A DNA stretch of 42,740 nt from Pseudomonadota bacterium. GTDB taxonomy: Bacteria > Chloroflexota > UBA6077 > JAJPHF01. The translations under genes were made by a program, and so were the position numbers. Under the pieces are notes generated by a model. The model did not search any database and was not told the origin of the DNA. It saw only the letters and a program-made list of their open reading frames with translations. Location of the stretch: NCBI GenBank assembly GCA_021325365.1, contig JAJPHF010000025.1, positions 1 to 42,740 of the forward strand. The letters run 5' to 3'. The first letter of the stretch is position 1, and the number at the start of each line of letters is the position of its first letter. Shown here piece by piece: positions 264-13,028 of the stretch.

Positions 264-3200
264 GTGACCATCGCGGTTCGCGTACGGGCGCTAGTACACG
301 GACTCGTCATCCTGAGCCTCCTATGTGTCGCTCCCGGCAGTGCTGCTCCGCGCGCGGCCGAGGCCCAGGGCTCGGGCAACATAAGCTACGTCTACGACCC
401 ACTCGGGCGCCTGATCGGCGTCCTCGATGGGGTTGGGGGCGTGGCCAAGTACCAGTACGATGCCGTGGGAAACCTTCTCGCGATCAAGCGCGAAGGCAGC
501 ACGCCCGTCCTCGTAACCAGCGTTGCACCCCTGAGTGGGGCCGTCGGAGCCACCGTCACGATCACTGGGACCGGCTTTAGTACAACGCCGAGTCTGAACA
601 CTGTTCAGTTCGTGGGTAGCTCCGGTCCGGTGAGCGCGGCGGTCACGTCGGCCACGGCTACCCAGCTCGTGGTGACGGTCCCCACCGGGGCGCTGACAGG
701 TTCGATCACGGTCAGCACTCCCAGCGACACGGCCGGAACGACTACGGCGGCCGCGTTTACCGTGCTGGACGCGAGCGGGCGTGATACACGAGCGCCGACC
801 ATCACGAGCGTTACCTCCAGCCCCAACGTGGTCGTGAATGGCTATCCTATCGCGGCCGCTGGCTCCACGATTACTATCGCCGGCACGAATCTCGAAACCA
901 CCTTCAGCGCGAATACCGCGATCAACACAGCCGCCAATAATGTTGTGGCAATCAATGGACAGCGCGCGACAGTCAGCCAAGGGGCCGATGCCTCGCACAT
1001 TAACGCGACCCTCCCCACGACCGCGAGCAGCGGGCCCCTGACGCTCACCACCCCGGGCGGCACGGCCGCCAATAGCACGGATCTCTTCGTGCCCCCCAGT
1101 GGGTACACTCCAGCCAACGTGGCGTTCGCCGACACGATGAGCGTGGGGGGTACCAAGACCATCACCACGAGCGCGAACGCGACGCAGACCATTGCACTTG
1201 TAGCCTTTGATGCGTCCGCAGGGCAGGCGCTCAGCCTGCAGCTGAGTAATATTCAGTACTCCGGGTCGTGCAACCCCTCGATCTCCATCCTCGCTCCCAA
1301 TGGCACGAGCTATCCTGGCCCCTCGTGTCGGGATACCTTTGCCCAGACCCCGGTGCTGCCCGCCACCGGCACCTACACCGTCCTCGTCGTCACGGGCGGC
1401 AATGCCGGACAGATGACCATAGCTTTGCAAGCGATCGCGCCAGATACGACCAATACGATCACTATCAACGGACCGGCCGTGCGTGTCACCATCAGCACCC
1501 CCGGCCAAAATGCCCTGCTGAGCTTCCAGGGCAGTGCTGGGGAGTCCGTGACCCTGCATGGACAGAACAGCACCGATCCCCAGTATCCTGGCTTTCCGTC
1601 CGGGCTCTTTGATTGCTTGCCTACTGTGGCGGTTCAAGATCGGACCAGAACAACCACTCTGGCCACCGGGTCGTGCAAGGATATCTCAGCGATTACGGCC
1701 ACTCTGCCTACGACAGGCGCGTACGCTATCCTGGTGGATCCTAGTGGAGCGGCCACAGGGACCCTGTTCCTAACGCTCACTCTCGCGGGGACCTCAACGC
1801 CGACGCCGACGAGCACGCCTACCAACACACCTACTGCCGGCGCCTCGCCAACGCCGACGAGCACACCTACCCCCAATGGGTCCCCGACCCTAACCTTCAC
1901 CCCAACCAAAGCTCCAACCGCCACGCCGCTTACGGGACCCGCCCTCGTGGTGCGCCCGAGCAGTATCGCGCCCGGCGGGGTGGCGAGCGTGGACTGGGGC
2001 GGCCTCTTCCCGCCGGTTACGCCGACCACCAACGACTGGATCGGCTTGTACACGCCCTCCCAGCCGGATAGCCCCGCCGCCACGGTCACCGTGACTACTA
2101 CCGGCGGCGTGAGCGGGCAGGTCGCCTTCGCCATTCCTACGAGCCTGGCCACCGGCACCTATCAGATGCGGCTGTTCAACGGGACTGGCACGGGCAGTCG
2201 GCTGGCCGTGAGCAATAACTTTAGCGTCACGCTGACTACGTCTACGCCGACGAGTAGCCCGACGAGCGGCGCCTCCCCCACCCCGACGAGCACGGCCACG
2301 GCCGGGCCATCGCCGACGCCTGGGGCGAGCTTACTCGCGCGGCCGAACATCATCCCGCAGGGTAGTACGGTCAACGCCACATGGGCTGGCATCCAGGGGC
2401 CGACCGCGAGAGATTGGATCGGACTATTTGCGGCCGGCGCACCGCCCCCGACCGTCAAGCCAACGACTTACCAGTACACGACCGGCCAGGCTAGTGGGCA
2501 GGTACCGCTCTCTATTCCGAGCGCCCAGGCGCCTGGCTCGTACGAGCTGCGCCTGTTCGCGAACGACACGTTTACACTCCTCGCGACTAGCAATAGCTTT
2601 GCTGTCACCGCGCCGTCGGGCGGACTCATGCCGCCGGATGCCTTAGCGACCACTCTACGGCTCCCGGACGCTGTTGGGGTTAGTCCTAGCGGGGCGCGCA
2701 TCATACAGTTGCTCAGCGCCCAACTCCGGCAAACCGTCGACCCAACGGCCTCGGGGAACATGCCGCCTGCCCAGGATGCGGGAGAGGGAGCGGCTCTGAC
2801 GAATCCGTCGTGGAGCCCAGAGCTCGGCTTCGTGCCGAATCTCTTGCGGCTCGGCCACACCGCGACCCCCTGGCGGCTCCTACCTCCGTTGGCGGGCACG
2901 CCCGGCAGCACGGCCCTAGCCGGTCAGGTGCTCCAACTGAACGGCCAACCGCTCGCCGACGTTACTCTTCAGCTGGGAACGGTCGAGGCGCGCACTGACA
3001 CGACTGGGCGCTTCTTGCTCGATGACCTCGCGCCGGGCCATCAGGAGCTGGTGATCGACGGGCGCTCCGCGAGCGACGCCGAGCGGGCCTACGGCCAGTT
3101 CTTTGCCGGGGTGGACCTGGTGGAGGGCGAGCGCACCGTGCTGCCCTACACGATCTGGCTGCCGCGGCTCGATACGCTCCATACGATAGCCATCCCTGCC

Positions 3201-6200
3201 CCGACCACCGAGGAAACAGTGCTCACCACGCCGAAGATACCGGGACTCGAGGTGCACCTACCACCGGGCACGGAGATCCGCGACCGGGAGGGCAACGTGG
3301 TCACTGAGCTAGGCATCACGGCGATTCCGGTGGACCGACCGCCGTTTCCGTTGCCGCCCGGGGCACCCGTACCGATCTACTTCACCATCCAGCCCGGCGG
3401 CGCCACGATTGCGCCGTATGGCGCTCGGATCGTCTATCCCAACTACACCCACGCGGCCCCCGGCACGCGCGGCACCTTCTGGCACTACGATCCCGTGCAG
3501 GACGGCTGGTACATCTACGGCCGAGGCACCGTGACGGCCGACGGGACGCAGGCGATCCCCGACCCCGGCGTGGCCGTCTTCGAGCTGACCGGCGCCATGT
3601 TCCATGCCGAAGACGGCCCCCAGCCGCCGGGTACCGCGCCCCCGCCAGGCAACGACACCGAAGACGGAGAGCCTGTCGATCTGAGTACCGGCCTCTTCGT
3701 CCTGAACAAGACTGATTTGGCACTCCCGGACGTACTCCCGCTTCGCCTTACGCGGACGTATCGACCACTCGACGCTATCTCGCGGCCCTTCGGGATCGGC
3801 GCGACCCATCCCTATGAAATGTACCTGTATGCACCGTATGGGCAGGAAGCGGAGGGCGTGAGCCTGGTCCTACCGGATGGCGGTCAGGTCGTCTATCTGC
3901 CGACCGTCTTCTGTCCCGGCGGCGGAGTAGACTGCGCCTCGGTAGTGTACACGCATACGGCGACCCCTACCCCTTTTTATAATTCGCAGCTCACCTACAG
4001 TGCGTCGGATCACCGCTGGCACATCACCCTCCGGGATGGGACTGTCTATCTGTTTGGCGACGGGGCGCCGCTCCAGGCTATCCGCGATCGCTACGGCAAT
4101 CAGATCACGCTCGCTCGAAACGGAGGCACGAACGCCTATGGCGATAATGTAGGAAACGTCACACAGATCACCTCGCCGAATGGCCGTTGGATTCGGTTGA
4201 CGTACGATACCAATAGCCCCCCTCGCATCACGGGGGCCGAGGATAACATCGGGCGTGCGATCGGCTATACATACTACACAACATACTCAGGCGGTGATCC
4301 ACGCAACGGTCATCTGGCGACCGTCACACTGGTGGACGGCAGCACAACCTATATGACCCAATATACCTACGACCCCAGCACGGGCGCGCTGACCCAGATT
4401 ACGGACGCGAAGGGGATCACCTACCTAACCAACAGCTATTATGCCAATGGTCGAGTGTCCCAGCAGACGCTCAACGATGGGACCGCGAATCCACCGACGT
4501 ATCAGTTTAGCTACGTCGATTATTCGCCACCCACGAGTCGCGTCCAAGAGACCGCCGTCACCGACCCCCGGGGCATCGTGCGTCGGGTCCAGTTCGATAC
4601 GCGGGGCTACACGATCAGCGATACGCGAGCCTACACGACGCCGCAGTATCCGACGAATCCCCCCGGCCCCCCGGAGCAGCAGACGAGTACCTACACTCGG
4701 CGAGCCGATGGTCTGGTGGAATCCATGACAGATCCCCTGGGGCACCGGACCACCTACGACTACGACCCCTGGGGAATGGTGACGCGCGTGACTCGCCTGG
4801 CGGAGCAGGCAACTCCGTACCAATTGACCACGCTTTTCAGCTACGAGGATCGCTTCCACCAGGTCGCCAGCGTAACCGACCCTCTCCAGCACACCACAAC
4901 CTACACCTATGATGCACTGGGAAATATCACCGTCATCACCGACCCGCTGGGGCACTACACGGTCCTTACGTACAACGCGGCGGGCCAGCCGCTCAGCCTG
5001 ACCGACCCACTCGACAACACGACACGCTTCGCCTACGCGCTGGGCGATCTTGTCCAGGTGACCGACCCGCTGAACCGGACGAGCGCGCGCTTCGTGGACA
5101 ACGCCGGACGGCTGGTCACGACGACGAATGCGCTCGGGCAGACCACGCGGCGGGAATACGATGGTATCAACCTGGTGCGCGAGGTGACCGATGCGCTGGG
5201 CCAGCACACGACGTTCGGCTACGACCTGAACGGCAACCTCATCAGCGTGACGGACGCTCGGAACAACACGACCAGCTACAACTACGACAACATGGACCGG
5301 CTGAGCACACGCACCGATGCCCTGGGCCAAGTGAACTCGACAGGACACCAGGAGACTTACCAGTACGACAAGGCGGGCAACGTGATCCAGGTGACGGATG
5401 ACCGCCGCGGCAAGATCACGACCTACTGCTACGACGGCCTCAACCGTCGGACGTTCGCCGGGTTCGGCACGGTCACGCCGCCCGGCGCCTGCGCCGCCGG
5501 GGCGAACTACGAGAGCACGATCATCTCGGCGTACGACGGCTGGAACCGGCTCACGCAAGCGGTAGACTCGGCGTCGGGCACCACGACACGCACCTACGAC
5601 GACGTGCAGCGTACAATGACAGAGACGACGCCGCAGGGTACGGTTAGTTACCAGTTCGACCCTGCCGGGCGCCGGACCATGCTGACGGCCTCAGGCCAGG
5701 CGCCCGTCGGGTACACCTTTGACGACGCGAACCGGCTGGTGCAGCTCGTCCAGGGAGCGACCACCGTGGGCCTGGCCTATGACCCGGCCAACCGCCAGAC
5801 GCAGCTCACCTTGCCGAATGGGGTGAGTGTAACCCACGGCTACGACGCGGCTGGCCAACTGACCAGCCTGAGCTACAGCCAGAACAACAGCACACTCGGC
5901 AACCTGGGCTACAGCTATGACCTGGCGGGCCAGAGAACCAGCCTGACGGGCAGCTTCGCTCGCACGGGGCTGCCGACCGCCCTCACGTCGGCGACGTACG
6001 ACGCGGCGAACCGCCTGACGCAGTGGGGCACGACGAGCATCACCTACGAGAACACGAACGGCGGCAACATGCTGACGGATGGGGCTCATACGTATAGCTG
6101 GAACGCGCGCAGCCAGCTCAGCCAGGTAGTGACGAGCGGCACGACGACCACCTTCGCCTATGACGCGCTCGGCCGCCGGCAGACCAGCACGGTCGTGCCG

Positions 6201-7004
6201 CCCGCGCCGACGCCGACGGTGACGACCAGCTACCTGTACGCCCGGGTGAACCCGATCCAGGAGCAGGCGAGCACAGGCACGGCCAACCTGCTCACTGGGC
6301 TGGGCCTCGACCAGTACTTCGCCCGCACGGAGAGCAGTACCACCCGCAGCTATCTGACTGACGCGCTCGGCTCGACCCTGGCCCTCGTGGGCGCCAGCGG
6401 CGTCGAGACGCAGTACACCTGCGACCCCTTTGGCAACACCATGCCGAGCGGCCCGGCCAGCACCAATCCCTACCAGTACACCGGGCGGGAGAACGACACG
6501 AGCACCGGGCTATACTACTACCGCGCACGGTACTACAACCCAGCCATCGAGCGCTTCATTAGCGAGGATCCCCTGCTCTGCGCACTCACCAACAGAGTAC
6601 CGCTAGCATCTATTGTGAGTTATCCCCAATCACTGAATGCGTTTGTCTACGCATTGGATGACCCTGTAGATCGGCGTGACCCCCTTGGGTTGACATCTGA
6701 TTGTGAATATTACCAGCAACGTTGCCATGATGTCCGAGATGCGATCTCACAGGGATATTACTGTCAGGCTGCTCCTACCGTTTGTCAACGCGGTGGAGAT
6801 AACCCATATTCCAATTGTGTACGCGGATGCCTGCAAGCAGCTGATAGTGCCGCATGTGTGCCAATCGTGGGGCGCAAGCACACAAATGGCGTGGGCACAG
6901 TCGCTTGTGCTGTAGAGATCCATGCGGCATGCTTCGCGACATGCCTGAATGTACTTAATGGCCGCCCGGACTATGTACCATTGCCGCCACATATCATTAA
7001 GTGA
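264..7004 (+). CDS. Secreted Rhs/YD-repeat protein with variable cysteine-rich C-terminus
   Basis: A 2,246-residue exported Rhs protein. I chose the GTG at 264 because a GGAGGGGAGG ribosome site lies just upstream and a signal peptide (about residues 1-34) follows directly; an upstream ATG at 177 is possible but lacks this. In order: a lone YD motif (41-75), two IPT/TIG-like beta domains (about 82-168 and 180-278), a Pro/Thr linker (511-559), two DWIGLY/DWIGLF domains (about 560-783), a carboxypeptidase-regulatory-like domain (about 884-940), a DUF6531-like Rhs entry domain (from about 1135), many YD repeats (about 1273-2063), the core signature YYRARYYNP (about 2084) and the core end DPLGL (2139-2143). 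The last 103 residues form a distinct cysteine-rich tip. By analogy with Rhs proteins, the YD repeats should form a shell around the C-terminal domain. A toxin role is inference only. Confidence 0.93.
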   Translation: MTIAVRVRALVHGLVILSLLCVAPGSAAPRAAEAQGSGNISYVYDPLGRLIGVLDGVGGVAKYQYDAVGNLLAIKREGSTPVLVTSVAPLSGAVGATVTITGTGFSTTPSLNTVQFVGSSGPVSAAVTSATATQLVVTVPTGALTGSITVSTPSDTAGTTTAAAFTVLDASGRDTRAPTITSVTSSPNVVVNGYPIAAAGSTITIAGTNLETTFSANTAINTAANNVVAINGQRATVSQGADASHINATLPTTASSGPLTLTTPGGTAANSTDLFVPPSGYTPANVAFADTMSVGGTKTITTSANATQTIALVAFDASAGQALSLQLSNIQYSGSCNPSISILAPNGTSYPGPSCRDTFAQTPVLPATGTYTVLVVTGGNAGQMTIALQAIAPDTTNTITINGPAVRVTISTPGQNALLSFQGSAGESVTLHGQNSTDPQYPGFPSGLFDCLPTVAVQDRTRTTTLATGSCKDISAITATLPTTGAYAILVDPSGAATGTLFLTLTLAGTSTPTPTSTPTNTPTAGASPTPTSTPTPNGSPTLTFTPTKAPTATPLTGPALVVRPSSIAPGGVASVDWGGLFPPVTPTTNDWIGLYTPSQPDSPAATVTVTTTGGVSGQVAFAIPTSLATGTYQMRLFNGTGTGSRLAVSNNFSVTLTTSTPTSSPTSGASPTPTSTATAGPSPTPGASLLARPNIIPQGSTVNATWAGIQGPTARDWIGLFAAGAPPPTVKPTTYQYTTGQASGQVPLSIPSAQAPGSYELRLFANDTFTLLATSNSFAVTAPSGGLMPPDALATTLRLPDAVGVSPSGARIIQLLSAQLRQTVDPTASGNMPPAQDAGEGAALTNPSWSPELGFVPNLLRLGHTATPWRLLPPLAGTPGSTALAGQVLQLNGQPLADVTLQLGTVEARTDTTGRFLLDDLAPGHQELVIDGRSASDAERAYGQFFAGVDLVEGERTVLPYTIWLPRLDTLHTIAIPAPTTEETVLTTPKIPGLEVHLPPGTEIRDREGNVVTELGITAIPVDRPPFPLPPGAPVPIYFTIQPGGATIAPYGARIVYPNYTHAAPGTRGTFWHYDPVQDGWYIYGRGTVTADGTQAIPDPGVAVFELTGAMFHAEDGPQPPGTAPPPGNDTEDGEPVDLSTGLFVLNKTDLALPDVLPLRLTRTYRPLDAISRPFGIGATHPYEMYLYAPYGQEAEGVSLVLPDGGQVVYLPTVFCPGGGVDCASVVYTHTATPTPFYNSQLTYSASDHRWHITLRDGTVYLFGDGAPLQAIRDRYGNQITLARNGGTNAYGDNVGNVTQITSPNGRWIRLTYDTNSPPRITGAEDNIGRAIGYTYYTTYSGGDPRNGHLATVTLVDGSTTYMTQYTYDPSTGALTQITDAKGITYLTNSYYANGRVSQQTLNDGTANPPTYQFSYVDYSPPTSRVQETAVTDPRGIVRRVQFDTRGYTISDTRAYTTPQYPTNPPGPPEQQTSTYTRRADGLVESMTDPLGHRTTYDYDPWGMVTRVTRLAEQATPYQLTTLFSYEDRFHQVASVTDPLQHTTTYTYDALGNITVITDPLGHYTVLTYNAAGQPLSLTDPLDNTTRFAYALGDLVQVTDPLNRTSARFVDNAGRLVTTTNALGQTTRREYDGINLVREVTDALGQHTTFGYDLNGNLISVTDARNNTTSYNYDNMDRLSTRTDALGQVNSTGHQETYQYDKAGNVIQVTDDRRGKITTYCYDGLNRRTFAGFGTVTPPGACAAGANYESTIISAYDGWNRLTQAVDSASGTTTRTYDDVQRTMTETTPQGTVSYQFDPAGRRTMLTASGQAPVGYTFDDANRLVQLVQGATTVGLAYDPANRQTQLTLPNGVSVTHGYDAAGQLTSLSYSQNNSTLGNLGYSYDLAGQRTSLTGSFARTGLPTALTSATYDAANRLTQWGTTSITYENTNGGNMLTDGAHTYSWNARSQLSQVVTSGTTTTFAYDALGRRQTSTVVPPAPTPTVTTSYLYARVNPIQEQASTGTANLLTGLGLDQYFARTESSTTRSYLTDALGSTLALVGASGVETQYTCDPFGNTMPSGPASTNPYQYTGRENDTSTGLYYYRARYYNPAIERFISEDPLLCALTNRVPLASIVSYPQSLNAFVYALDDPVDRRDPLGLTSDCEYYQQRCHDVRDAISQGYYCQAAPTVCQRGGDNPYSNCVRGCLQAADSAACVPIVGRKHTNGVGTVACAVEIHAACFATCLNVLNGRPDYVPLPPHIIK
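6693..7001 (+). other. Rhs C-terminal tip module with ten cysteines
   Basis: These are the 103 residues after DPLGL. They hold ten cysteines spaced C-x6-C-x12-C-x6-C-x10-C-x3-C-x8-C-x16-C-x7-C-x3-C, plus a conserved GRK between the seventh and eighth. The orphan reading frame at 7654 has the same pattern, with only two short length changes. An even number of fixed cysteines in an exported protein suggests a disulfide-stabilised fold, although metal binding is possible. I do not recognise the family. The DNA here is visibly AT-richer than the Rhs core. Confidence 0.7.
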
Positions 7005-7010
7005 CAACAT

Positions 7011-7430
7011 ATGATGTATGTTCCTAGATTGTGCCGGTTCATCGGCTTGATATTCACGTTCATATCCGTCGTGAGCGCGCCGATGTTCCTGTACTACGCC
7101 ATCGTCGTCATTTCTGATATACCCTCGGCCGTGCATGAGCCATGGCTGCTGTTGATCTCCGCCATGTTGGTCATCAATACCGTATTTGGAGCTGTAGTTG
7201 CCTATGCATTCTACAATCTTAGGCGTTGGGGTCGCTATGTGGCGATTGGATTCTCGCTGTTCTATATATCAGTCATTCTTGGCAACGAAATCGTATCATA
7301 TATGGTCTTCCGTGGTAGAGGGATTGGTAGCATGACCAGCATAGCATTGGAGGCGTTATCAATCATCGGCTTGATGTCGTTGATTATCATATGTCTATCA
7401 CCTTCAATCAGGGCAACGATGACCAGGTGA
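7011..7430 (+). CDS. Small four-helix membrane protein, candidate Rhs immunity protein (copy A)
   Basis: A 139-residue protein with about four hydrophobic segments (roughly 10-33, 44-68, 76-97 and 108-128). It carries RRWGRYVA before the third helix and ends LSPSIRATMTR. The ATG lies six bases after the Rhs stop codon with no good ribosome site, which suggests translational coupling. The protein at 8750 shares the RRWGRYVA box and the LSP..RA end, so the two are clearly related. Its position directly behind an Rhs tip is where immunity genes usually sit, and membrane immunity proteins are known for polymorphic toxins. Function is inferred from position only. The AT-richer base composition matches the tip and not the Rhs core. 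Confidence 0.75.
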   Translation: MMYVPRLCRFIGLIFTFISVVSAPMFLYYAIVVISDIPSAVHEPWLLLISAMLVINTVFGAVVAYAFYNLRRWGRYVAIGFSLFYISVILGNEIVSYMVFRGRGIGSMTSIALEALSIIGLMSLIIICLSPSIRATMTR

Positions 7431-7653
7431 TCACTCGACATCCTCTCGTTGCCTTGATTGGTTAGTGTTGCGCTCTGACATGTCTTGCGGCTGCGATCAC
7501 GCATTGTGGTCACAAGAATTGTATCTATCGCACCTATCAGCGGATGATAGCTAACACCTATAGAAGGACCGGGTCAAAGCGGGCATACGGATAAACGCCA
7601 TAATAGCTAACCCGCAGATCCTCAACGGATTCGCGTATGCAAACGATGCACCC

Positions 7654-8004
7654 ATGACCATCCGCGATCCTCTTGGCTTATCACCAGAGTGCGACTATTA
7701 TCGTGACAGATGCGCCGCTGTTACGAGTGATACTGCCAAAGCATATCGGTGCTATGCTGGTCTGGCAGTCTGCGAAGGCGCTCCGCGAGACGAAACTAGC
7801 AATTGTATCCGTAGCTGTTTGCAGAGCTTCGATCGCAACATTTGCAGCAGGATTCCACTATTCGGCAGAAAGGATGTGGAGGATGCGGTTACTGAAGGCT
7901 GCTCCTTCTTTCAGGCGCATGCGATCTGCTTTGCCCGCTGTGGTATTGGCAGAGGGATCGATGAAGTGAGACATCGATTTCCAGACCCACCAATTATCAG
8001 ATGA
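7654..8004 (+). CDS. Orphan Rhs C-terminal cassette (core end plus cysteine-rich tip)
   Basis: A 116-residue frame starting MTIRDPLGLSPE. It is homologous to the end of the Rhs protein: DPLGL sits at 7666-7680, followed by 107 residues with the same ten-cysteine pattern (C-x6-C-x12-C-x6-C-x10-C-x3-C-x8-C-x18-C-x8-C-x3-C) and the shared NC.R.CLQ and GRK boxes. The frame is open upstream to a stop at 7561, and residues encoded from about 7609 (NPQILNGFAYANDAP) still match the Rhs core (YPQSLNAFVYALDDP). The ATG is therefore inside core-derived sequence, and this is a displaced tip with no exporting core. It may be expressed from the internal ATG, or be a silent cassette that can recombine into the Rhs gene. 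Confidence 0.8.
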   Translation: MTIRDPLGLSPECDYYRDRCAAVTSDTAKAYRCYAGLAVCEGAPRDETSNCIRSCLQSFDRNICSRIPLFGRKDVEDAVTEGCSFFQAHAICFARCGIGRGIDEVRHRFPDPPIIR

Positions 8005-8041
8005 CCAGATAAGGTGTTGACGCACACTCGATGATACCCAT

Positions 8042-8449
8042 ATGATTGCTACTATGCGAATTGTAAGCGGGATATATGGCGCCATTGGCGTACTTGGCGG
8101 GGTGATTTTCCTGTGGTATCTGGTATTCGGGCGATCATTACTAACCGAAGGGATAGTTGCGTCGACAGCGTATATATTTACTGTCGCACTGGCTCTGGTC
8201 CATACTGCTTTTGCCGCAGCGGCAGCATACTTAATATGGATACGCAGGGCGATTGGAGCGCTAGTAGCCGTAACCTACAATGCTATCTGGATAATTGTGC
8301 CACTTTATGCTATAGTTGCACTAATAATAGGTGCACCTGAAAGACTAATCGAGCCGGTTGGGTTAGTGGAATTGTCCATCCTAATCGTGCCAGGTGTGTT
8401 GAGTATAGTCATATTGTATGCGTGGCGAAGCAGATATTTCATTGGTTAG
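8042..8449 (+). CDS. Small four-helix membrane protein, candidate immunity partner of orphan tip (copy B)
   Basis: A 135-residue, strongly hydrophobic protein with about four membrane segments (roughly 7-28, 38-66, 72-96 and 106-126). It follows the orphan cysteine-rich tip by 37 bases, just as copy A follows the Rhs tip, so each tip is paired with a membrane protein. It has the same length and layout as copies A (7011) and C (8750). It lacks their RRWGRYVA box, having IRRAIGALVA in the same place, so relationship by descent is likely but not certain from sequence alone. No ribosome site stands out. An immunity role is inferred from gene order only. Confidence 0.7.
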   Translation: MIATMRIVSGIYGAIGVLGGVIFLWYLVFGRSLLTEGIVASTAYIFTVALALVHTAFAAAAAYLIWIRRAIGALVAVTYNAIWIIVPLYAIVALIIGAPERLIEPVGLVELSILIVPGVLSIVILYAWRSRYFIG

Positions 8450-8454
8450 ACTAT

Positions 8455-8743
8455 GAGAGCCTGGCTACGGCAACGTACCGCGTGGCGCACTTCCCTCACG
8501 CTATGGGGGCCGACGACGACTATCTATGATTAACCCTTCACCTATCGAGTAAGAAACATGGGAAGGCTTTGGGCGCTCCACACGACCAGCGCAGCTATGG
8601 TGATCGCCTCCCGCAAACATGGACCGCGGTGTGCACGTTCGCCGCGGTCCATGCCGCCTGCTGGTCTGGCTGTGCAGCGCGACTTGAGAACGGCGAGCTG
8701 GAAAGATACGATCCGCCGATATTTCGATAACGACCTACGGTGA
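8455..8743 (+). pseudogene. Broken copy of the secreted gene at 9214
   Basis: Two pieces resemble the intact gene at 9214 but are in the wrong order and interrupted. At 8558 an ATG opens MGRLWALHTTSAAMVIAS, matching MGRLAIIHTTSSAMAIAS of the intact gene, and the upstream TCG.GTAAGA leader is shared. At about 8478-8510 the sequence CGTGGCGCACT...CTATGG resembles DNA encoding residues near 72-83 of the intact protein (WRTPRPME). After the N-terminal match the frame runs out of similarity and stops at 8743. I read this as remnants of a duplicated copy, not a functional 61-residue gene. Confidence 0.55.
8618..8653. repeat. Perfect 12-bp inverted repeat inside the gene remnant
   Basis: CATGGACCGCGG (8618-8629) and CCGCGGTCCATG (8642-8653) are perfect inverted copies around a 12-base loop that itself contains the palindrome GTGCAC. 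No run of T follows, so it is not a clear terminator. It sits where the broken gene copy loses similarity to its parent, so it may mark a recombination or insertion end. Confidence 0.6.
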
Positions 8744-8749
8744 TACCAA

Positions 8750-9133
8750 ATGGAACGAGGCCTCGATCTGGCAGGAATAATGTACGCCGTGTTAGGTGTA
8801 TTTCAGAGTGCAGCCACGGTCTTTTTTTCGATCGCACTCTTGTCTCCGGATCATTCACTACGCCTCCTAGTCCTTGCCTTCGGGATTAGCGCTATACTAA
8901 ACATACTGATGGCGTATGCATGTCTTACTCGCCGCCGATGGGGACGTTATGTGGCATGCTTATACAGTTTGATATATATACTTCTGATTGTTGTCGTGTA
9001 CGCGCTGTCTCTTGCGCTTGGCATTACACGTGATCCACTAATAGGAGTTTCATATCTACCGCTTGTACTTGTATTCGTCTTGCAAGCAGCCATATTCTTG
9101 TCTCCGGGGGCTGGAAGGGCGATGATACGTTGA
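8750..9133 (+). CDS. Small four-helix membrane protein, candidate immunity protein without a tip (copy C)
   Basis: A 127-residue protein with about four membrane segments (roughly 7-30, 38-58, 68-90 and 96-116). It carries RRRWGRYVACLYSLIYI and ends LSPGAGRAMIR, matching the RRWGRYVA box and the C-terminal LSP..RA of copy A at 7011. No cysteine-rich tip precedes it, only the gene remnant at 8455-8743. It could be a leftover immunity gene whose partner was lost, or a protein with its own role. Base composition is AT-richer, like the rest of 6.6-9.2 kb. Confidence 0.72.
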   Translation: MERGLDLAGIMYAVLGVFQSAATVFFSIALLSPDHSLRLLVLAFGISAILNILMAYACLTRRRWGRYVACLYSLIYILLIVVVYALSLALGITRDPLIGVSYLPLVLVFVLQAAIFLSPGAGRAMIR

Positions 9134-9213: not shown

Positions 9214-10494
9214 ATGGGGAGGCTAGCTATAATCCACACGACAAGCTCGGCTATGGCGATCGCCTCGATCGCAAGCGCGGTGGTATTGGCGGCAGCCGTT
9301 GTGGTACACGCAGATGGCCGGAGCGGTGAACCCGTTCCCTATATAGAGACCTTTGATGGCCGTCCGGCTCGGCCCGAGCCCTGGCGCCCGCTCGACTGGG
9401 ATGTGACGACGCACTCGCGCGACCCAAATACGTGGCGCACTCCGCGCCCTATGGAGGCTATGCACGGCGACATATGCACCCCTCCACCTGCTGCTCACAC
9501 CGCCCGCTCCTACGAGGACGCGGTTTTCCTCTGCAACGACCATCTCATGACGGCAATCAACGCCAGCAGTTACGGCGTCATCTACCTTACGCCGAGTCAC
9601 CAGGTGGACTTCTCTGACGGCGAGGCAACAATACGCTTCGATCTCTCCACCCTCCGCACCTCGCCCCGCGACTGGATCGACCTCTGGGTCAGCCCCTATG
9701 ACGAGCACCTTCAGCTCCCGTTAGAAGACTGGCTGCCTGACCTCAACGGCCCGCCACGGAGCGCGGTCCACATCAAGATGGAGAGCCTGAACGGCGCCAC
9801 GCCGTTCAAGGCGTTCGTCTACCGCAACTTCCGGGAGGAGGACGTAGGGGGCGACGCGCAGACCGGCTACGAGAGCTTCCTGGACCCGAGCGCCCTCCGC
9901 CGCGACACTTTCGAACTGCGTCTCTCGCGCACGCACCTGAAGTTCGGCATGCCGGCCTATGATTTCTGGTGGGTGGACATGGACATCGCTGATCTCGGCT
10001 GGGACCAGGGCGTGGCGCAGTTCGGCCATCACTCGTACGACCCCACGCGCAACTGCCCGACGTGCGGCCCGAATACCTGGCACTGGGACAACGTCTCCAT
10101 CTCGTCGGCCATCCCCTTCACCATGCTGCGCGCCGACCGCCGCTACGTGGACCCCGATACCGAGCCCGGCGTCAACTTTCCTGCCCCCTCCCCCGACAAC
10201 AGCCGGCTGCGCTTCGCCGGCGTCGGGCGCAATATAGAGGTGAGCTTCGATGGCGGTACGACCTGGGAGCCGGCGCAGCTGCAGACCCAGATGAAGTATG
10301 ACTACACGCGGTTCCAGTCGTACTGGACGCCGATCCCCGCTGGCGTATGGAGCGTGCGGTTCCGCGGGAAGAGCGCAACACCCGGGCTGCCGTGGATGGT
10401 GCAGGACATCTCCGTCTGGTCCCGCGAGCCTCCTGCTCAGAATAGCGCCCAACCACCGAGCGAGCAGGCCGCCTTGTTCGAGTGTCCCTTGTAG
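9214..10494 (+). CDS. Secreted protein of unknown function
   Basis: A 426-residue protein with an N-terminal hydrophobic export signal (about residues 10-33, probable cleavage after VVVHA). The mature part opens with YIETFDGRPARPEPW, has many tryptophan and aspartate residues, a paired-cysteine stretch RNCPTCGPNTWHWDNV near residue 280, and a beta-rich C-terminal section (VSFDGGTTWEPAQ) typical of extracellular beta-sandwich domains. The 'ETFDG' opening and the WHWDNV segment resemble concanavalin-like or carbohydrate-binding surface proteins, but I cannot name a family. Base composition climbs back to the high-GC norm a short way into the gene. A degenerate partial copy lies just upstream (8455-8743), so the gene seems to have been duplicated with the small membrane-protein genes. 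Confidence 0.8.
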   Translation: MGRLAIIHTTSSAMAIASIASAVVLAAAVVVHADGRSGEPVPYIETFDGRPARPEPWRPLDWDVTTHSRDPNTWRTPRPMEAMHGDICTPPPAAHTARSYEDAVFLCNDHLMTAINASSYGVIYLTPSHQVDFSDGEATIRFDLSTLRTSPRDWIDLWVSPYDEHLQLPLEDWLPDLNGPPRSAVHIKMESLNGATPFKAFVYRNFREEDVGGDAQTGYESFLDPSALRRDTFELRLSRTHLKFGMPAYDFWWVDMDIADLGWDQGVAQFGHHSYDPTRNCPTCGPNTWHWDNVSISSAIPFTMLRADRRYVDPDTEPGVNFPAPSPDNSRLRFAGVGRNIEVSFDGGTTWEPAQLQTQMKYDYTRFQSYWTPIPAGVWSVRFRGKSATPGLPWMVQDISVWSREPPAQNSAQPPSEQAALFECPL

Positions 10495-10967
10495 CTTCTA
10501 CGCGATCCTCGCCTAGCGTCCCGGTAGTGCGATTCCCTGGCTTGCCTGGTGACGGCGATCCGTGAACGGACACGCGGCTCCCGGGCACCGTCGTCTCGGC
10601 CCCTGAATCCGCGGGTGACGGCTGATCCGCCCGAGCGGGAACGATTGCGCTATAGCCGTTTCTGCTGTTCGATGCGGCGAGCACGCGCCTGGCTCCTGTT
10701 CGGCGGCCTGAGCGCCGACCCAGCCCCGTGTGAGTGTCCACCTCGCGTTGTTCGCTTTGCCTGGTCATACCCGCCGTGCGCAATCTCGGGATCAACCCCG
10801 CTGCCGATCGGTGCCCTGCCGCTCACGGTTGCTGGCGATCGGCTCCTCTCAACCGTCAGCACGAAAGCTCAGGCCGCCACTCAGAATTCGGCGTTGCTGA
10901 CGATGCTGACGGTTGTGCCAGCGACTTGCCGTCCACGCGACGCCAGGAATTCTCCGTTGAATTGTTG
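10495..10967. other. Intergenic stretch with nothing recognised
   Basis: Several short open frames occur here but none has coding-like composition, a ribosome site or a recognisable motif. No tRNA or clear att-like repeat was seen. As the left flank of the recombinase module, it is where a left attachment site could lie. Confidence 0.4.
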
Positions 10968-10997
10968 TTGCCAATGTCGGCATTAATGGCGTACAAT
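10968..10997 (+). promoter_or_regulatory. Sigma-70-type promoter, probably giving a leaderless mRNA
   Basis: TTGCCA (10968-10973) and TACAAT (10992-10997) are separated by 18 bases. Transcription would start about seven bases past the -10 box, at or next to the ATG at 11004. No ribosome site precedes that ATG, which fits a leaderless transcript. Confidence 0.55.
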
Positions 10998-11003
10998 CAA
11001 CGC

Positions 11004-11216
11004 ATGAGCGATACCGAGCGGGACTTTCTAACGGCAGCCGAGGCGGCAGCCGCCCTGGGCCTGCCAGGGCGCACGGTCCGTAACCGCCTCCAGCGCGGCA
11101 TCATGCGCGGCGTGGCGGTGAATCCGCGATTATGGCTGGTGTCCCGCGCCGAGGTCGAGCGCTGGCGGGAAGTCGGCAAACTGCCGCCGGGCCGGAAGCC
11201 GCGTCCCGAGTCGTAA
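11004..11216 (+). CDS. Excisionase-like helix-turn-helix DNA-binding protein
   Basis: A 70-residue protein that is almost entirely one winged helix-turn-helix of the MerR/excisionase (HTH_17-like) type: FLTAAEAAAALGLPGRTVRN is the recognition unit and the segment ending LVSRAEVERW is the wing and final helix. The frame is open further upstream, but the ATG at 11004 is preferred because the domain begins right after it and a promoter (10968-10997) places the transcript start there. It lies 69 bases before a large serine recombinase on the same strand, so it may act as a recombination directionality factor or as regulator of the recombinase. This pairing is inference; small HTH proteins of this kind have many roles. 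Confidence 0.75.
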   Translation: MSDTERDFLTAAEAAAALGLPGRTVRNRLQRGIMRGVAVNPRLWLVSRAEVERWREVGKLPPGRKPRPES

Positions 11217-11226
11217 CCAAACAAGT

Positions 11227-11255
11227 GCCCCGGCACCGTTGCAGCGGCCCGGGGC
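11227..11255 (+). promoter_or_regulatory. Stem-loop in the leader of the recombinase gene
   Basis: GCCCCGG (11227-11233) pairs with CCGGGGC (11249-11255) across a 15-base loop. It lies between the helix-turn-helix gene and the AGGAGG ribosome site of the recombinase. It could be an intergenic terminator or attenuator; there is no T-run. Confidence 0.3.
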
Positions 11256-11285
11256 TGGCGAGCACCTGAGTAGGAGGTACCCGCA

Positions 11286-13028
11286 ATGGCAATTCTAGCA
11301 CCGGCGCCCTCAACAGCTCTCCGCGCCGCGATCTACCGCCGCGTCAGTACGCTAGAGCAGGGACAGCGCGGCCATAGCCTCGACGCGCAAGCGCAGGACT
11401 GCGCAGCGCTCGCCGCCGAGCTGGGCGCCACTTTGATTGGTGAGCCGTTCACCGACCGCGACAGCGGCGCCGAATGGAATCTGCCGGGCCTGAACGCGAT
11501 GCTCGACGCGGCGAAGCGGCGCGCCTTTGACGTGCTGCTCGTCTACGACCCCGACCGGCTGGCGCGCAACATGGCGAAGCAGCTCGTGGTCGAGGAAGAT
11601 CTCAAGCGCGCCGGCGTCGTCATTCGCTACGTCACTCTTCGGCTAGGCGATACCGCCGAGGATTACCTGCTCAAGAACATGCGCTCGGCCATCGCGGAAT
11701 ACGAGCGCTCGAAGATCGCTCTACGGACCAGTCGAGGTCGCCGCGCGAAAGCCGAGCGCGGCTTGATCGTCGGGAACGGATGGGCGCCCTACGGCTACCG
11801 CTTCACCTACGACACTGATGGCCGAGTAGTCGGTCTGGAAGAGGACCCGGCTACGGCGCCCGTCGTGCGTCGTATCTTCACCGACCTCACGCAACATTCC
11901 CTCAACGAGGTCTGCCGACGGCTAAACGCCGAGGGTGTGCCGACGTACTTCCAGGGGCGCACGCGGAGGGGAAAGCCGCTGTCAGGTCGCTGGCGCGACA
12001 GTACGATTCTCGGCATTGTGCAGAACCCCGTGTACCTCGGCACCGCTGCATACGGACGCCGAGACACCCACAAGCAGCTACGTCCGCCCGATACGTGGCT
12101 TACTATTGCCGTGCCCGCTCTCATCGATCGCGATACCTGGGACGCAGCCCACGCAGCGATGGCTCAGCGCCGGGACCGGCGGCCCGCGAAGCGGCCTGAC
12201 CTGGAGCACGTCTACGAGCTTCGCGGACGGCTGACTTGCGGGCATTGCGGCGGAGCAGTCGCTACGCAGATCAACAACGGGCACCGCTACTACGCCTGTC
12301 TCCGCCGGGAAGCAGCGCGGGCCGCTTTCCAGGGTAAGCCGCGATGCACACTACCGCCCGTGCCCAGTGCGCTCCTAGATGCTGAGGCGTGGCAGCTCAC
12401 GAGCGCCGCCCTACTCGATAAGGAGCGTCTTGCCATGGGGCTCCGGGCGGCCCGTGAGCAGCACAGCGATGCGGACACCCGCCAGCGCGAGCGGCTGGAT
12501 GCCGTCGACCGCGAAATTGCGCGGCTGCGCGCACGCTTCGACCGCATCACGGACGAACGGCTCGACGCTACCCCAGGGAGCGAGACAGACCGCGCATTGC
12601 GCTCCAAGGCCCACGAGGTCGAAGCGGCGATCAACCGGCTGCTGGCGGACCGAGCCAAGCTCGCCGCCGCTCCCATGCCGGGGATTAGCGAGACGGAGAG
12701 CCTGCAGCTCTGTGAGTTCGCGGCGGAGGTACGCGCGGGGATCGAGCATGCGACGCCGGCGGAGCGCCGCCGTGTCTACGAACTGCTGCGCCTGGAGGGC
12801 ACCGTCCGTCTGGACCCAGAGCAGGGGGTGCAACTCGGGCGGCGTCACCGCTTTTCGATCGCCTGGACCAGCGTCCTAGACCTATCCCACGACACACGAG
12901 AGGTCAAGAAGACGCGCGTCGAGTATTTCACCGACGACTACGCTGATTGGGAGCGCAAGTTCCTGGGCGAGGTCAAGATCAGCCTCGGGGGCGTCCCCGC
13001 CCCGGAGCCGGCCGCGGCCCCGGCGTAG
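11286..13028 (+). CDS. Large serine recombinase (site-specific integrase/resolvase family)
   Basis: A 580-residue member of the large serine recombinase family, which cuts and rejoins DNA at attachment sites through a serine-DNA bond. The N-terminal catalytic domain has IYRRVSTLEQ with the nucleophile at Ser21 and the arginine-bearing VYDPDRLARN. The central 'recombinase' domain (about 180-300) includes GWAPYGYRF and a run ending ILGIVQNPVYLGTAAYGRR. A zinc ribbon follows (CGHCGG near 318, then a later YYACLRR and cysteine), and then a long charged coiled coil (about 385-460), all in the usual order and at full length. The start is fixed by a strong AGGAGG nine bases upstream. It follows an excisionase-like gene and is probably the core of a small integrated element; no att sites or cargo are evident. 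Confidence 0.95.
   Translation: MAILAPAPSTALRAAIYRRVSTLEQGQRGHSLDAQAQDCAALAAELGATLIGEPFTDRDSGAEWNLPGLNAMLDAAKRRAFDVLLVYDPDRLARNMAKQLVVEEDLKRAGVVIRYVTLRLGDTAEDYLLKNMRSAIAEYERSKIALRTSRGRRAKAERGLIVGNGWAPYGYRFTYDTDGRVVGLEEDPATAPVVRRIFTDLTQHSLNEVCRRLNAEGVPTYFQGRTRRGKPLSGRWRDSTILGIVQNPVYLGTAAYGRRDTHKQLRPPDTWLTIAVPALIDRDTWDAAHAAMAQRRDRRPAKRPDLEHVYELRGRLTCGHCGGAVATQINNGHRYYACLRREAARAAFQGKPRCTLPPVPSALLDAEAWQLTSAALLDKERLAMGLRAAREQHSDADTRQRERLDAVDREIARLRARFDRITDERLDATPGSETDRALRSKAHEVEAAINRLLADRAKLAAAPMPGISETESLQLCEFAAEVRAGIEHATPAERRRVYELLRLEGTVRLDPEQGVQLGRRHRFSIAWTSVLDLSHDTREVKKTRVEYFTDDYADWERKFLGEVKISLGGVPAPEPAAAPA

Follow-up and report, generated by a model that had tools for sequence, protein, structure and literature searches.

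The stretch analysed here, referred to below as the window, comprises positions 1 to 42,740 of contig JAJPHF010000025.1 (assembly GCA_021325365.1; 42,740 nucleotides). Near its start lies a gene for an Rhs protein whose C-terminal domain, or tip, contains ten cysteines. Behind this gene stand an orphan copy of the tip and a remnant of a third one, and a gene for a small membrane protein comes after every one of these three tips. The features of this array are listed in Table 1.

Table 1 Features of the Rhs gene and the tip cassettes behind it in the window.
Feature	Position	Strand	Remarks
Rhs protein gene	264..7004	+	2246 residues from 264; 2275 residues from an in-frame TTG at 177
DPLGL core-end motif, with P-x4 before it (PVDRRDPLGL)	6678..6692	+
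Tip 1, ten-cysteine domain	6693..7004 (coding 6693-7001)	+	103 residues and stop codon
M1, four-helix membrane protein	7011..7430	+	139 residues; candidate immunity protein for tip 1
Core-end stub of the orphan cassette	7603..7680	+	26 residues ending in DPLGL; resembles the Rhs core end by eye
Tip 2, orphan ten-cysteine domain	7681..8004 (coding 7681-8001)	+	107 residues and stop codon; ATG at 7654
M2, membrane protein	8042..8449	+	135 residues; candidate immunity protein for tip 2
Tip 3 remnant	8530..8730 (coding 8530-8727)	+	profile positions 64-96, the last third of the ten-cysteine domain, with stop codon
M3, intact membrane protein	8750..9133	+	127 residues; homologue of M1; orphan candidate immunity gene

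The Rhs protein, its tips and their membrane partners

Library scans of the Rhs protein in the window found RHS/YD repeats (PF05593, expectation value E 6.6e-77), DUF6531 and the Rhs-associated core (TIGR03696, E 3.6e-19), and gave no match to PAAR within the protein. Its N-terminus resembles a Sec signal peptide, as do the N-termini of two relatives from the protein database (P0005 and P0006); all three were read by eye, without a predictor. In the preliminary description of this DNA both tip 1 and tip 2 were said to follow DPLGL, and P-x4-DPLGL was confirmed upstream of each. The same motif precedes the tip in P0005, in P0006 and in a third relative, the Rokubacteria locus L001.

The spacings of the ten cysteines, re-measured as 6-12-6-10-3-8-16-7-3 in tip 1 and 6-12-6-10-3-8-18-8-3 in tip 2, agree with the near-identity claimed earlier. 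The two tips are 41% identical if DPLGL is counted and 36% if it is left out, and their global alignment scores 159, whereas 1000 shuffles average 14.9 and reach at most 40 (z 22.7); with the cysteines masked, z is 12.1. In the full set of five tips (tip 1, tip 2 and those of the three relatives), the ten cysteines are invariant together with Y, R, Y, R, L, Q, D and H, and most other positions vary; in P0006, however, the seventh cysteine is out of register in the full-length alignment, and there is one extra cysteine. The GRK box, described earlier as shared by tips 1 and 2, is absent from one of the five. All five tips are hydrophilic, with a grand average of hydropathy (GRAVY) of -0.13 to -0.53, and the best 19-residue hydropathy window per tip lies between 0.61 and 1.74, exceeding 1.6 in tip 1 only (1.74). 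Structure prediction, suggested earlier as a check, yielded four helices at low confidence (predicted local distance difference test, pLDDT, 68.2).

M1 starts 6 nucleotides after the stop codon of tip 1, and M2 starts 37 nucleotides after that of tip 2. Both had been described as small four-helix proteins of the membrane; a hydrophobic partner was indeed found each time, and four long helices were modelled for M1 (pLDDT 79), the only partner given a helix model, the other three (M2, M3 and the partner in L001) being judged by hydropathy. GRAVY values of the four partners range from 1.13 to 1.47. M1 and M3 are recognizably related (BLASTP E 3e-8, z 11.8), and M2 stands further off (z 5.0 with M1 and 1.6 with M3; BLASTP to M1 E 0.84). 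Leave-one-out profiles of the partners recover M1 at E 3e-11, M3 at 3e-6 and M2 at 6e-5, and a profile built from the three window partners has the L001 partner as its sole match in that locus (E 1.5e-6). Judged by these profiles, which avoid circularity, the four partners are one family. M3 also gives a hit to DUF2127, a Pfam family of predicted membrane proteins, at E 0.006, which is below the cut-off of that family; DUF2127 is a possible distant origin of the partners.

The two tip-partner pairs of the preliminary description were confirmed, and a third had been missed, namely the tip 3 remnant and M3. A profile of the five tips, scanned over all six frames of the window, located the remnant in an open frame (E 6e-4, 16.5 bits), and E was 6e-4, 4e-3 and 7e-4 with tip 1, tip 2 or both, respectively, omitted from the profile. 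This score is modest, and it is backed by the place and frame of the remnant directly before M3, its stop codon ending 19 nucleotides ahead of that gene. The front of tip 3 has been replaced by other DNA. The 5' end of a secreted-looking open reading frame (9214-10494) is partly duplicated (9214-9270 versus 8558-8613, 34 nucleotides, 88%), and the duplicate at 8558 overlaps the spot of the lost front, as if in a rearrangement-like replacement. A minus-strand frame at 6750-7268, which the tip profile scored at E 0.05-0.2, was taken as a chance match.

Relatives of the tip, their carriers and the low-GC island

The one relative from the genome contigs is L001, a locus in a groundwater metagenome-assembled genome of Candidatus Rokuibacteriota (JACQFL010000019.1). 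It encodes a 1095-residue Rhs protein (P0004) with a ten-cysteine tip, and the TGA stop codon of the tip overlaps the ATG of its partner (ATGA), which has four hydrophobic segments. P0005 (1687 residues, E 7.2e-23) and P0006 (741 residues, E 1.9e-8) supplied the two other tips. A membrane protein is encoded directly behind all four tips with readable downstream DNA, three of them in the window and one in Rokubacteria.

These tips are borne by different carriers. P0005 matches the window core at 50% identity over 1289 aligned columns. BLASTP at E up to 1e-3 connects the core of P0006 with neither the window core nor that of L001, and P0006 matches P0005 over 74 columns only, at the very end. 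The same ten-cysteine tip is found on unrelated cores. Similar cores also bear different tips: just upstream in L001 is an Rhs gene whose core is 68% identical (332 residues), whose tip is entirely different and which has a lipoprotein-like frame behind it. By eye, this neighbouring tip is peptidase-like, with the motifs HIGIGV and GRHCGNFV, and orphan frames resembling this tip and the lipoprotein-like frame recur at about 4375-4760 of L001 (1-4760).

Across the Rokubacteria phylum, a core query matches 30 of 95 genomes. From 41 loci (the 30 core-query loci plus 11 regions, some overlapping), 19 distinct tip ends were parsed in 18, the remainder being unparsed by the pattern; the ten-cysteine tip accounts for one of these 19 ends, and five tips that run off their locus were omitted. 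A stricter first parsing script returned 9 rows, including one tip (L045) missed by the second.

Four observations together amount to a polymorphic-toxin architecture: (i) the same tip stands on different cores; (ii) different tips stand on one core; (iii) there is an orphan cassette; and (iv) an intact partner follows a wrecked tip. The sequence features checked for the Rhs polymorphic toxins, i.e., an RHS/YD core, a DPxGL end, different tips on related cores, the same tip on different cores and a candidate immunity gene directly downstream, are all present, consistent with membership of the system in that group.

The cassettes are low in guanine plus cytosine (GC). The GC content is 0.52 in tip 1, 0.47 in M1, 0.52 in tip 2, 0.46 in M2, 0.48 in M3 and 0.59 in the frame of tip 3, compared with 0.65 in the Rhs gene, 0.645 in the next gene and 0.69 in the whole window; in L001 it is 0.61 in the tip and 0.56 in the partner versus 0.67 in the core. 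Between 6500 and 9300, promoter-like sites number 11, with 3.8 expected from shuffles, and terminators are at chance level. The window gave no Rfam match and no tRNA. A large serine recombinase with Resolvase, Recombinase and zinc ribbon domains (11286-13028) is encoded 2 kb beyond the cassette array, preceded by a small open reading frame that looks helix-turn-helix-like by eye, and the region 10734-13028 is a possible mobile element.

Distribution of the tip and comparison with known families

The ten-cysteine tip family looks rare. Protein database searches returned one match among 20 candidates (the query itself), none among 20, and 3 among 46 including the query's own record, and 69 pattern matches in genome contigs yielded a single relative. 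With the tip profile, 1 of 95 genomes of the Rokubacteria phylum was matched, as were 15 of 385 genomes at E <= 0.1 and 9 of 395 at E <= 0.01, all of these weakly (best 9.8e-5); the weak matches fall in 26 places, and the two inspected (L009 and L015) are by eye not in Rhs genes. At E 0.001 no genome was matched in further sets of 310 and 300, and the sets used in the separate tip scans may overlap. The partner profile matched 6 of 388 genomes at E 0.01, one strongly (the L001 partner itself) and five weakly. Three scans of viral contigs found no match, three tip queries had no match among plasmids (at E <= 1, 0.01 and 0.1), and among phages one was listed twice at E 0.7 for one query and none for another.

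As the preliminary description had supposed, the tip lies outside the toxin families in the libraries searched: curated families, PHROG, PADLOC models and solved structures gave no match at a meaningful level. The weakest leads were a designed protein in the PDB (E 0.007) and, for the Rokubacteria tip, the Pfam family Fz (E 0.088). Searches of open-licence papers for Rhs proteins with cysteine-rich, disulfide-bonded or Frizzled-like parts gave no title or abstract opening that describes the tip, and an earlier unnamed sighting is possible. The tip appears to form a rare, novel family within an otherwise familiar type of system.

The comparisons that follow refer to the available parts of the cited papers. 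With the Rhs/YD polymorphic toxins (Zhang et al. 2012, PMC3482391; Tse5, PMC9637101) the locus shares the common Rhs core, the P-x4-DPLGL end and the variable tip, and a downstream gene and an orphan tip cassette are common to both as well. It differs from them in the missing PAAR match, in the likely export by Sec and in the unmatched ten-cysteine tip. Bacterial teneurin-like proteins (PMC13018210) have YD shells, many with a signal peptide, together with variable C-terminal toxins and immunity genes, and the tip of one from B. inaquosorum inhibits growth only with a signal peptide. The likeness to the protein of the window extends to the YD-shell carrier, the apparent signal peptide and the variable, predicted toxin tip, whereas the available part of that report names no ten-cysteine tip and its membrane-active tip is hydrophobic.

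With the ionophores of contact-dependent inhibition (CDI) and the toxin Ssp4, an integral membrane protein gives immunity to a helical toxin, an arrangement like the one predicted here. Sip4, the immunity protein to Ssp4, has four predicted transmembrane (TM) helices (PMC12669606), and CDI ionophore immunity proteins diverge strongly, to ~30% identity (PMC11630599), as M1-M3 do; Tse5 and Tsi5 serve as a working analogue (PMC9637101). An integral membrane protein of the kind that provides immunity in pore-forming toxin systems is found here too, judging from the hydropathy of the four partners and the M1 model. The toxins differ, those of the CDI and Ssp4 systems having predicted membrane-spanning helices (PMC11630599, PMC12669606) and the tip here being hydrophilic and cysteine-rich.

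Min-Wnt lipocones (PMC12419801) are alike in their small helical tip and, in some cases, four-TM immunity, and the prediction for them is an encounter outside the cell or within the membrane. The ancestral lipocone pattern inferred in that work is H in helix 2, E in helix 3 and D in helix 4, which some families have changed; Wnt cysteine-rich extensions are called metazoan-specific there. By contrast, the invariant residues of the tip are Y and R in helix 1, Y in helix 2, R, L, Q and D in helix 3 and H in helix 4, with the helix limits taken from a low-confidence model. A lipocone or Min-Wnt identity was rejected, as the H/E/D active-site pattern is absent and Pfam gave no match. As to the four-helix cone fold of the lipocones, the tip model has four predicted helices (pLDDT 68) and gave no fold match. 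Secreted phospholipase A2, considered for its His and Asp with cysteines, was also rejected, with no Pfam match at E up to 10.

Homology to the Frizzled cysteine-rich domain (CRD) did not hold either: the hhalign probability is 0.12%, and shuffled profiles scored as high or higher in 50 of 60 and 53 of 60 cases, four of the five Fz sequences used being provisional. The central cysteine spacings are 8-12, 6, 10, 3, 7-8 and 10-18 in the five tips and 8, 6, 9-11, 3, 6 and 16 in Fz, and the outer cysteines of the tips and the CRD do not correspond. Residues 29-77 of P0002, in tip 1, have a central cysteine spacing (6-10-3-8-16) nearly equal to that of the Frizzled-8 CRD (6-10-3-6-16), without support from the sequence. 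For each of the pore-forming, lipocone and Frizzled families, at least one defining feature was looked for and is missing here.

Proposed function and its alternatives

On balance, the locus is probably an Rhs tip cassette array with a predicted exported ten-cysteine toxin tip and membrane partners as its likely immunity proteins. The polymorphic Rhs toxin with membrane immunity put forward in the preliminary description is supported in those parts that sequence can test, i.e., the core, DPLGL, the same tip on an unrelated core, other tips on related cores, the orphan cassette and the partners behind four of four readable tips. We put forward a more specific version tentatively, in which a soluble helical tip with five disulfides would become active only after oxidation outside the cell and have its target on the outer face of the cytoplasmic membrane, and a four-helix protein within the bilayer would confer immunity.

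We infer the following course of events. Sec would export the Rhs protein, whose core would enclose the tip and undergo cleavage at its DPLGL end. Once outside, the tip could form up to five disulfides from its ten cysteines, which would lock the small helical domain; disulfides are proposed because ten invariant cysteines sit on an apparently exported protein. On contact, the soluble tip would arrive at the cytoplasmic membrane of a rival from its outer face. Its target there would be a lipid, a precursor linked to lipid or a membrane protein, and the attack would make the membrane or envelope fail. The four-helix partner of the producer, with almost nothing outside the membrane, would block the tip in place, and the lack of an outside domain in the partner is the reason for placing the action at or in the membrane. 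With orphan cassettes at hand, the Rhs gene may exchange its tip through recombination across the core-end stub. Orphan partners may protect against toxins that are no longer carried. M3 would be such an immunity protein rather than a helper or cofactor of the tip, because it is intact behind a wrecked tip.

Several points weigh against this reading. The family comprises five tips in all, and the count of four partners behind four tips leaves out P0005 and P0006, whose downstream DNA was unread, and draws three of its four pairs from one window. The Rhs protein of L001, as deposited, has no visible export signal. The alignments behind the models are thin (five tip rows and four partner rows), and a fold search with the tip model found no match, the model being poor and giving no disulfide pairing. 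No clear ribosome-binding site was seen by eye at the starts of M1, M2, M3 or tip 2, which makes expression of the orphan genes uncertain. Four-TM partners also serve enzyme toxins (Min-Wnt; PMC12419801), so a four-TM partner does not single out the bilayer itself as the target. Membrane partners also occur with other tips. In a control that took up to three candidate frames near each tip stop and counted those with at least three hydrophobic segments, 4 of the 18 other tips on related Methylomirabilota cores (L041, L047, L052 and L068) had such a frame, whereas all four ten-cysteine tips did (Fisher p 0.0096). Counting L045, which has one segment, turns the control into 4 of 19 (p 0.0079). 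This enrichment speaks for the proposed pairing but is suggestive only, because three of those four ten-cysteine tips are paralogues in tandem.

The class of the partner seems to follow the class of the tip. The tips of L041, L052 and L068 are glycine-rich, with positive GRAVY over the measured part and partner frames of 4, 3 and 7 segments, respectively, and are candidates for other membrane toxin/immunity pairs. Six tips look like alpha/beta-hydrolases by eye (L036, L039, L045, L053, L056 and L067); a one-segment candidate frame was found in five of the six and a frame with more segments in none, as would fit an exported or lipid-anchored protein.

In the strongest rival reading, the tip would be an enzyme whose substrates are lipid head groups or lipid-linked precursors such as lipid II at the outer face of the cytoplasmic membrane, similar to the lipocone toxins Min-Wnt and TelC in action but not a member of those families. 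Its active site would consist of the invariant R, R, Q, D and H, and the cysteines would only hold the fold together. Such an enzyme agrees with the hydrophilic domain and the invariant polar residues besides the cysteines, with the lipase-like tips (by eye) on related Rhs cores and with the four-TM immunity protein reported for Min-Wnt toxins (PMC12419801). These residues could, however, be purely structural, and neither the ancestral H/E/D pattern nor a match to Wnt, SAA or another lipocone-type Pfam family was found; we regard an enzyme as rather unlikely, though worth keeping in view. Somewhat less likely again is a pore former or ionophore that would insert in the cytoplasmic membrane, as Tse5, Ssp4 and CDI ionophores do, and be plugged by the four-helix partner. 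Membrane-embedded immunity accompanies toxins of this type (PMC12669606, PMC11630599, PMC9637101), and the three glycine-rich Methylomirabilota Rhs tips with frames of 3-7 hydrophobic segments behind them fit the same pattern. Yet a classical inserting pore loses probability because the tip is hydrophilic: GRAVY is negative in five of five tips, and tip 1 alone has a 19-residue window above 1.6. Ten cysteines in about 100 residues would, moreover, lock the fold and hinder its unfolding into the bilayer.

Disulfide-rich domains are often used for binding, and the tip might be a non-toxic adhesion or recognition domain with the four-helix protein as its anchor, exporter or signalling partner. 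The partly Frizzled-like central spacing and the Fz lead of one tip point in that direction, but shuffled profiles do as well as the tip in the Frizzled comparison, M3 has outlasted the full tip in front of it, and the tip occurs on unrelated cores and in an orphan cassette within a low-GC island. We consider an adhesion domain improbable.

If the favoured reading of an exported, disulfide-locked toxin tip is correct, the Rhs systems of uncultured bacteria would hold a toxin class that depends on disulfide formation outside the cell, and its partners would be an unusually clean case of an immunity protein whose action is confined to the membrane interior. Since tips and partners come as ready-made pairs, their specificity and their target are open to direct tests, and in the decayed tip 3 with its intact partner, immunity may have been caught outliving its toxin.

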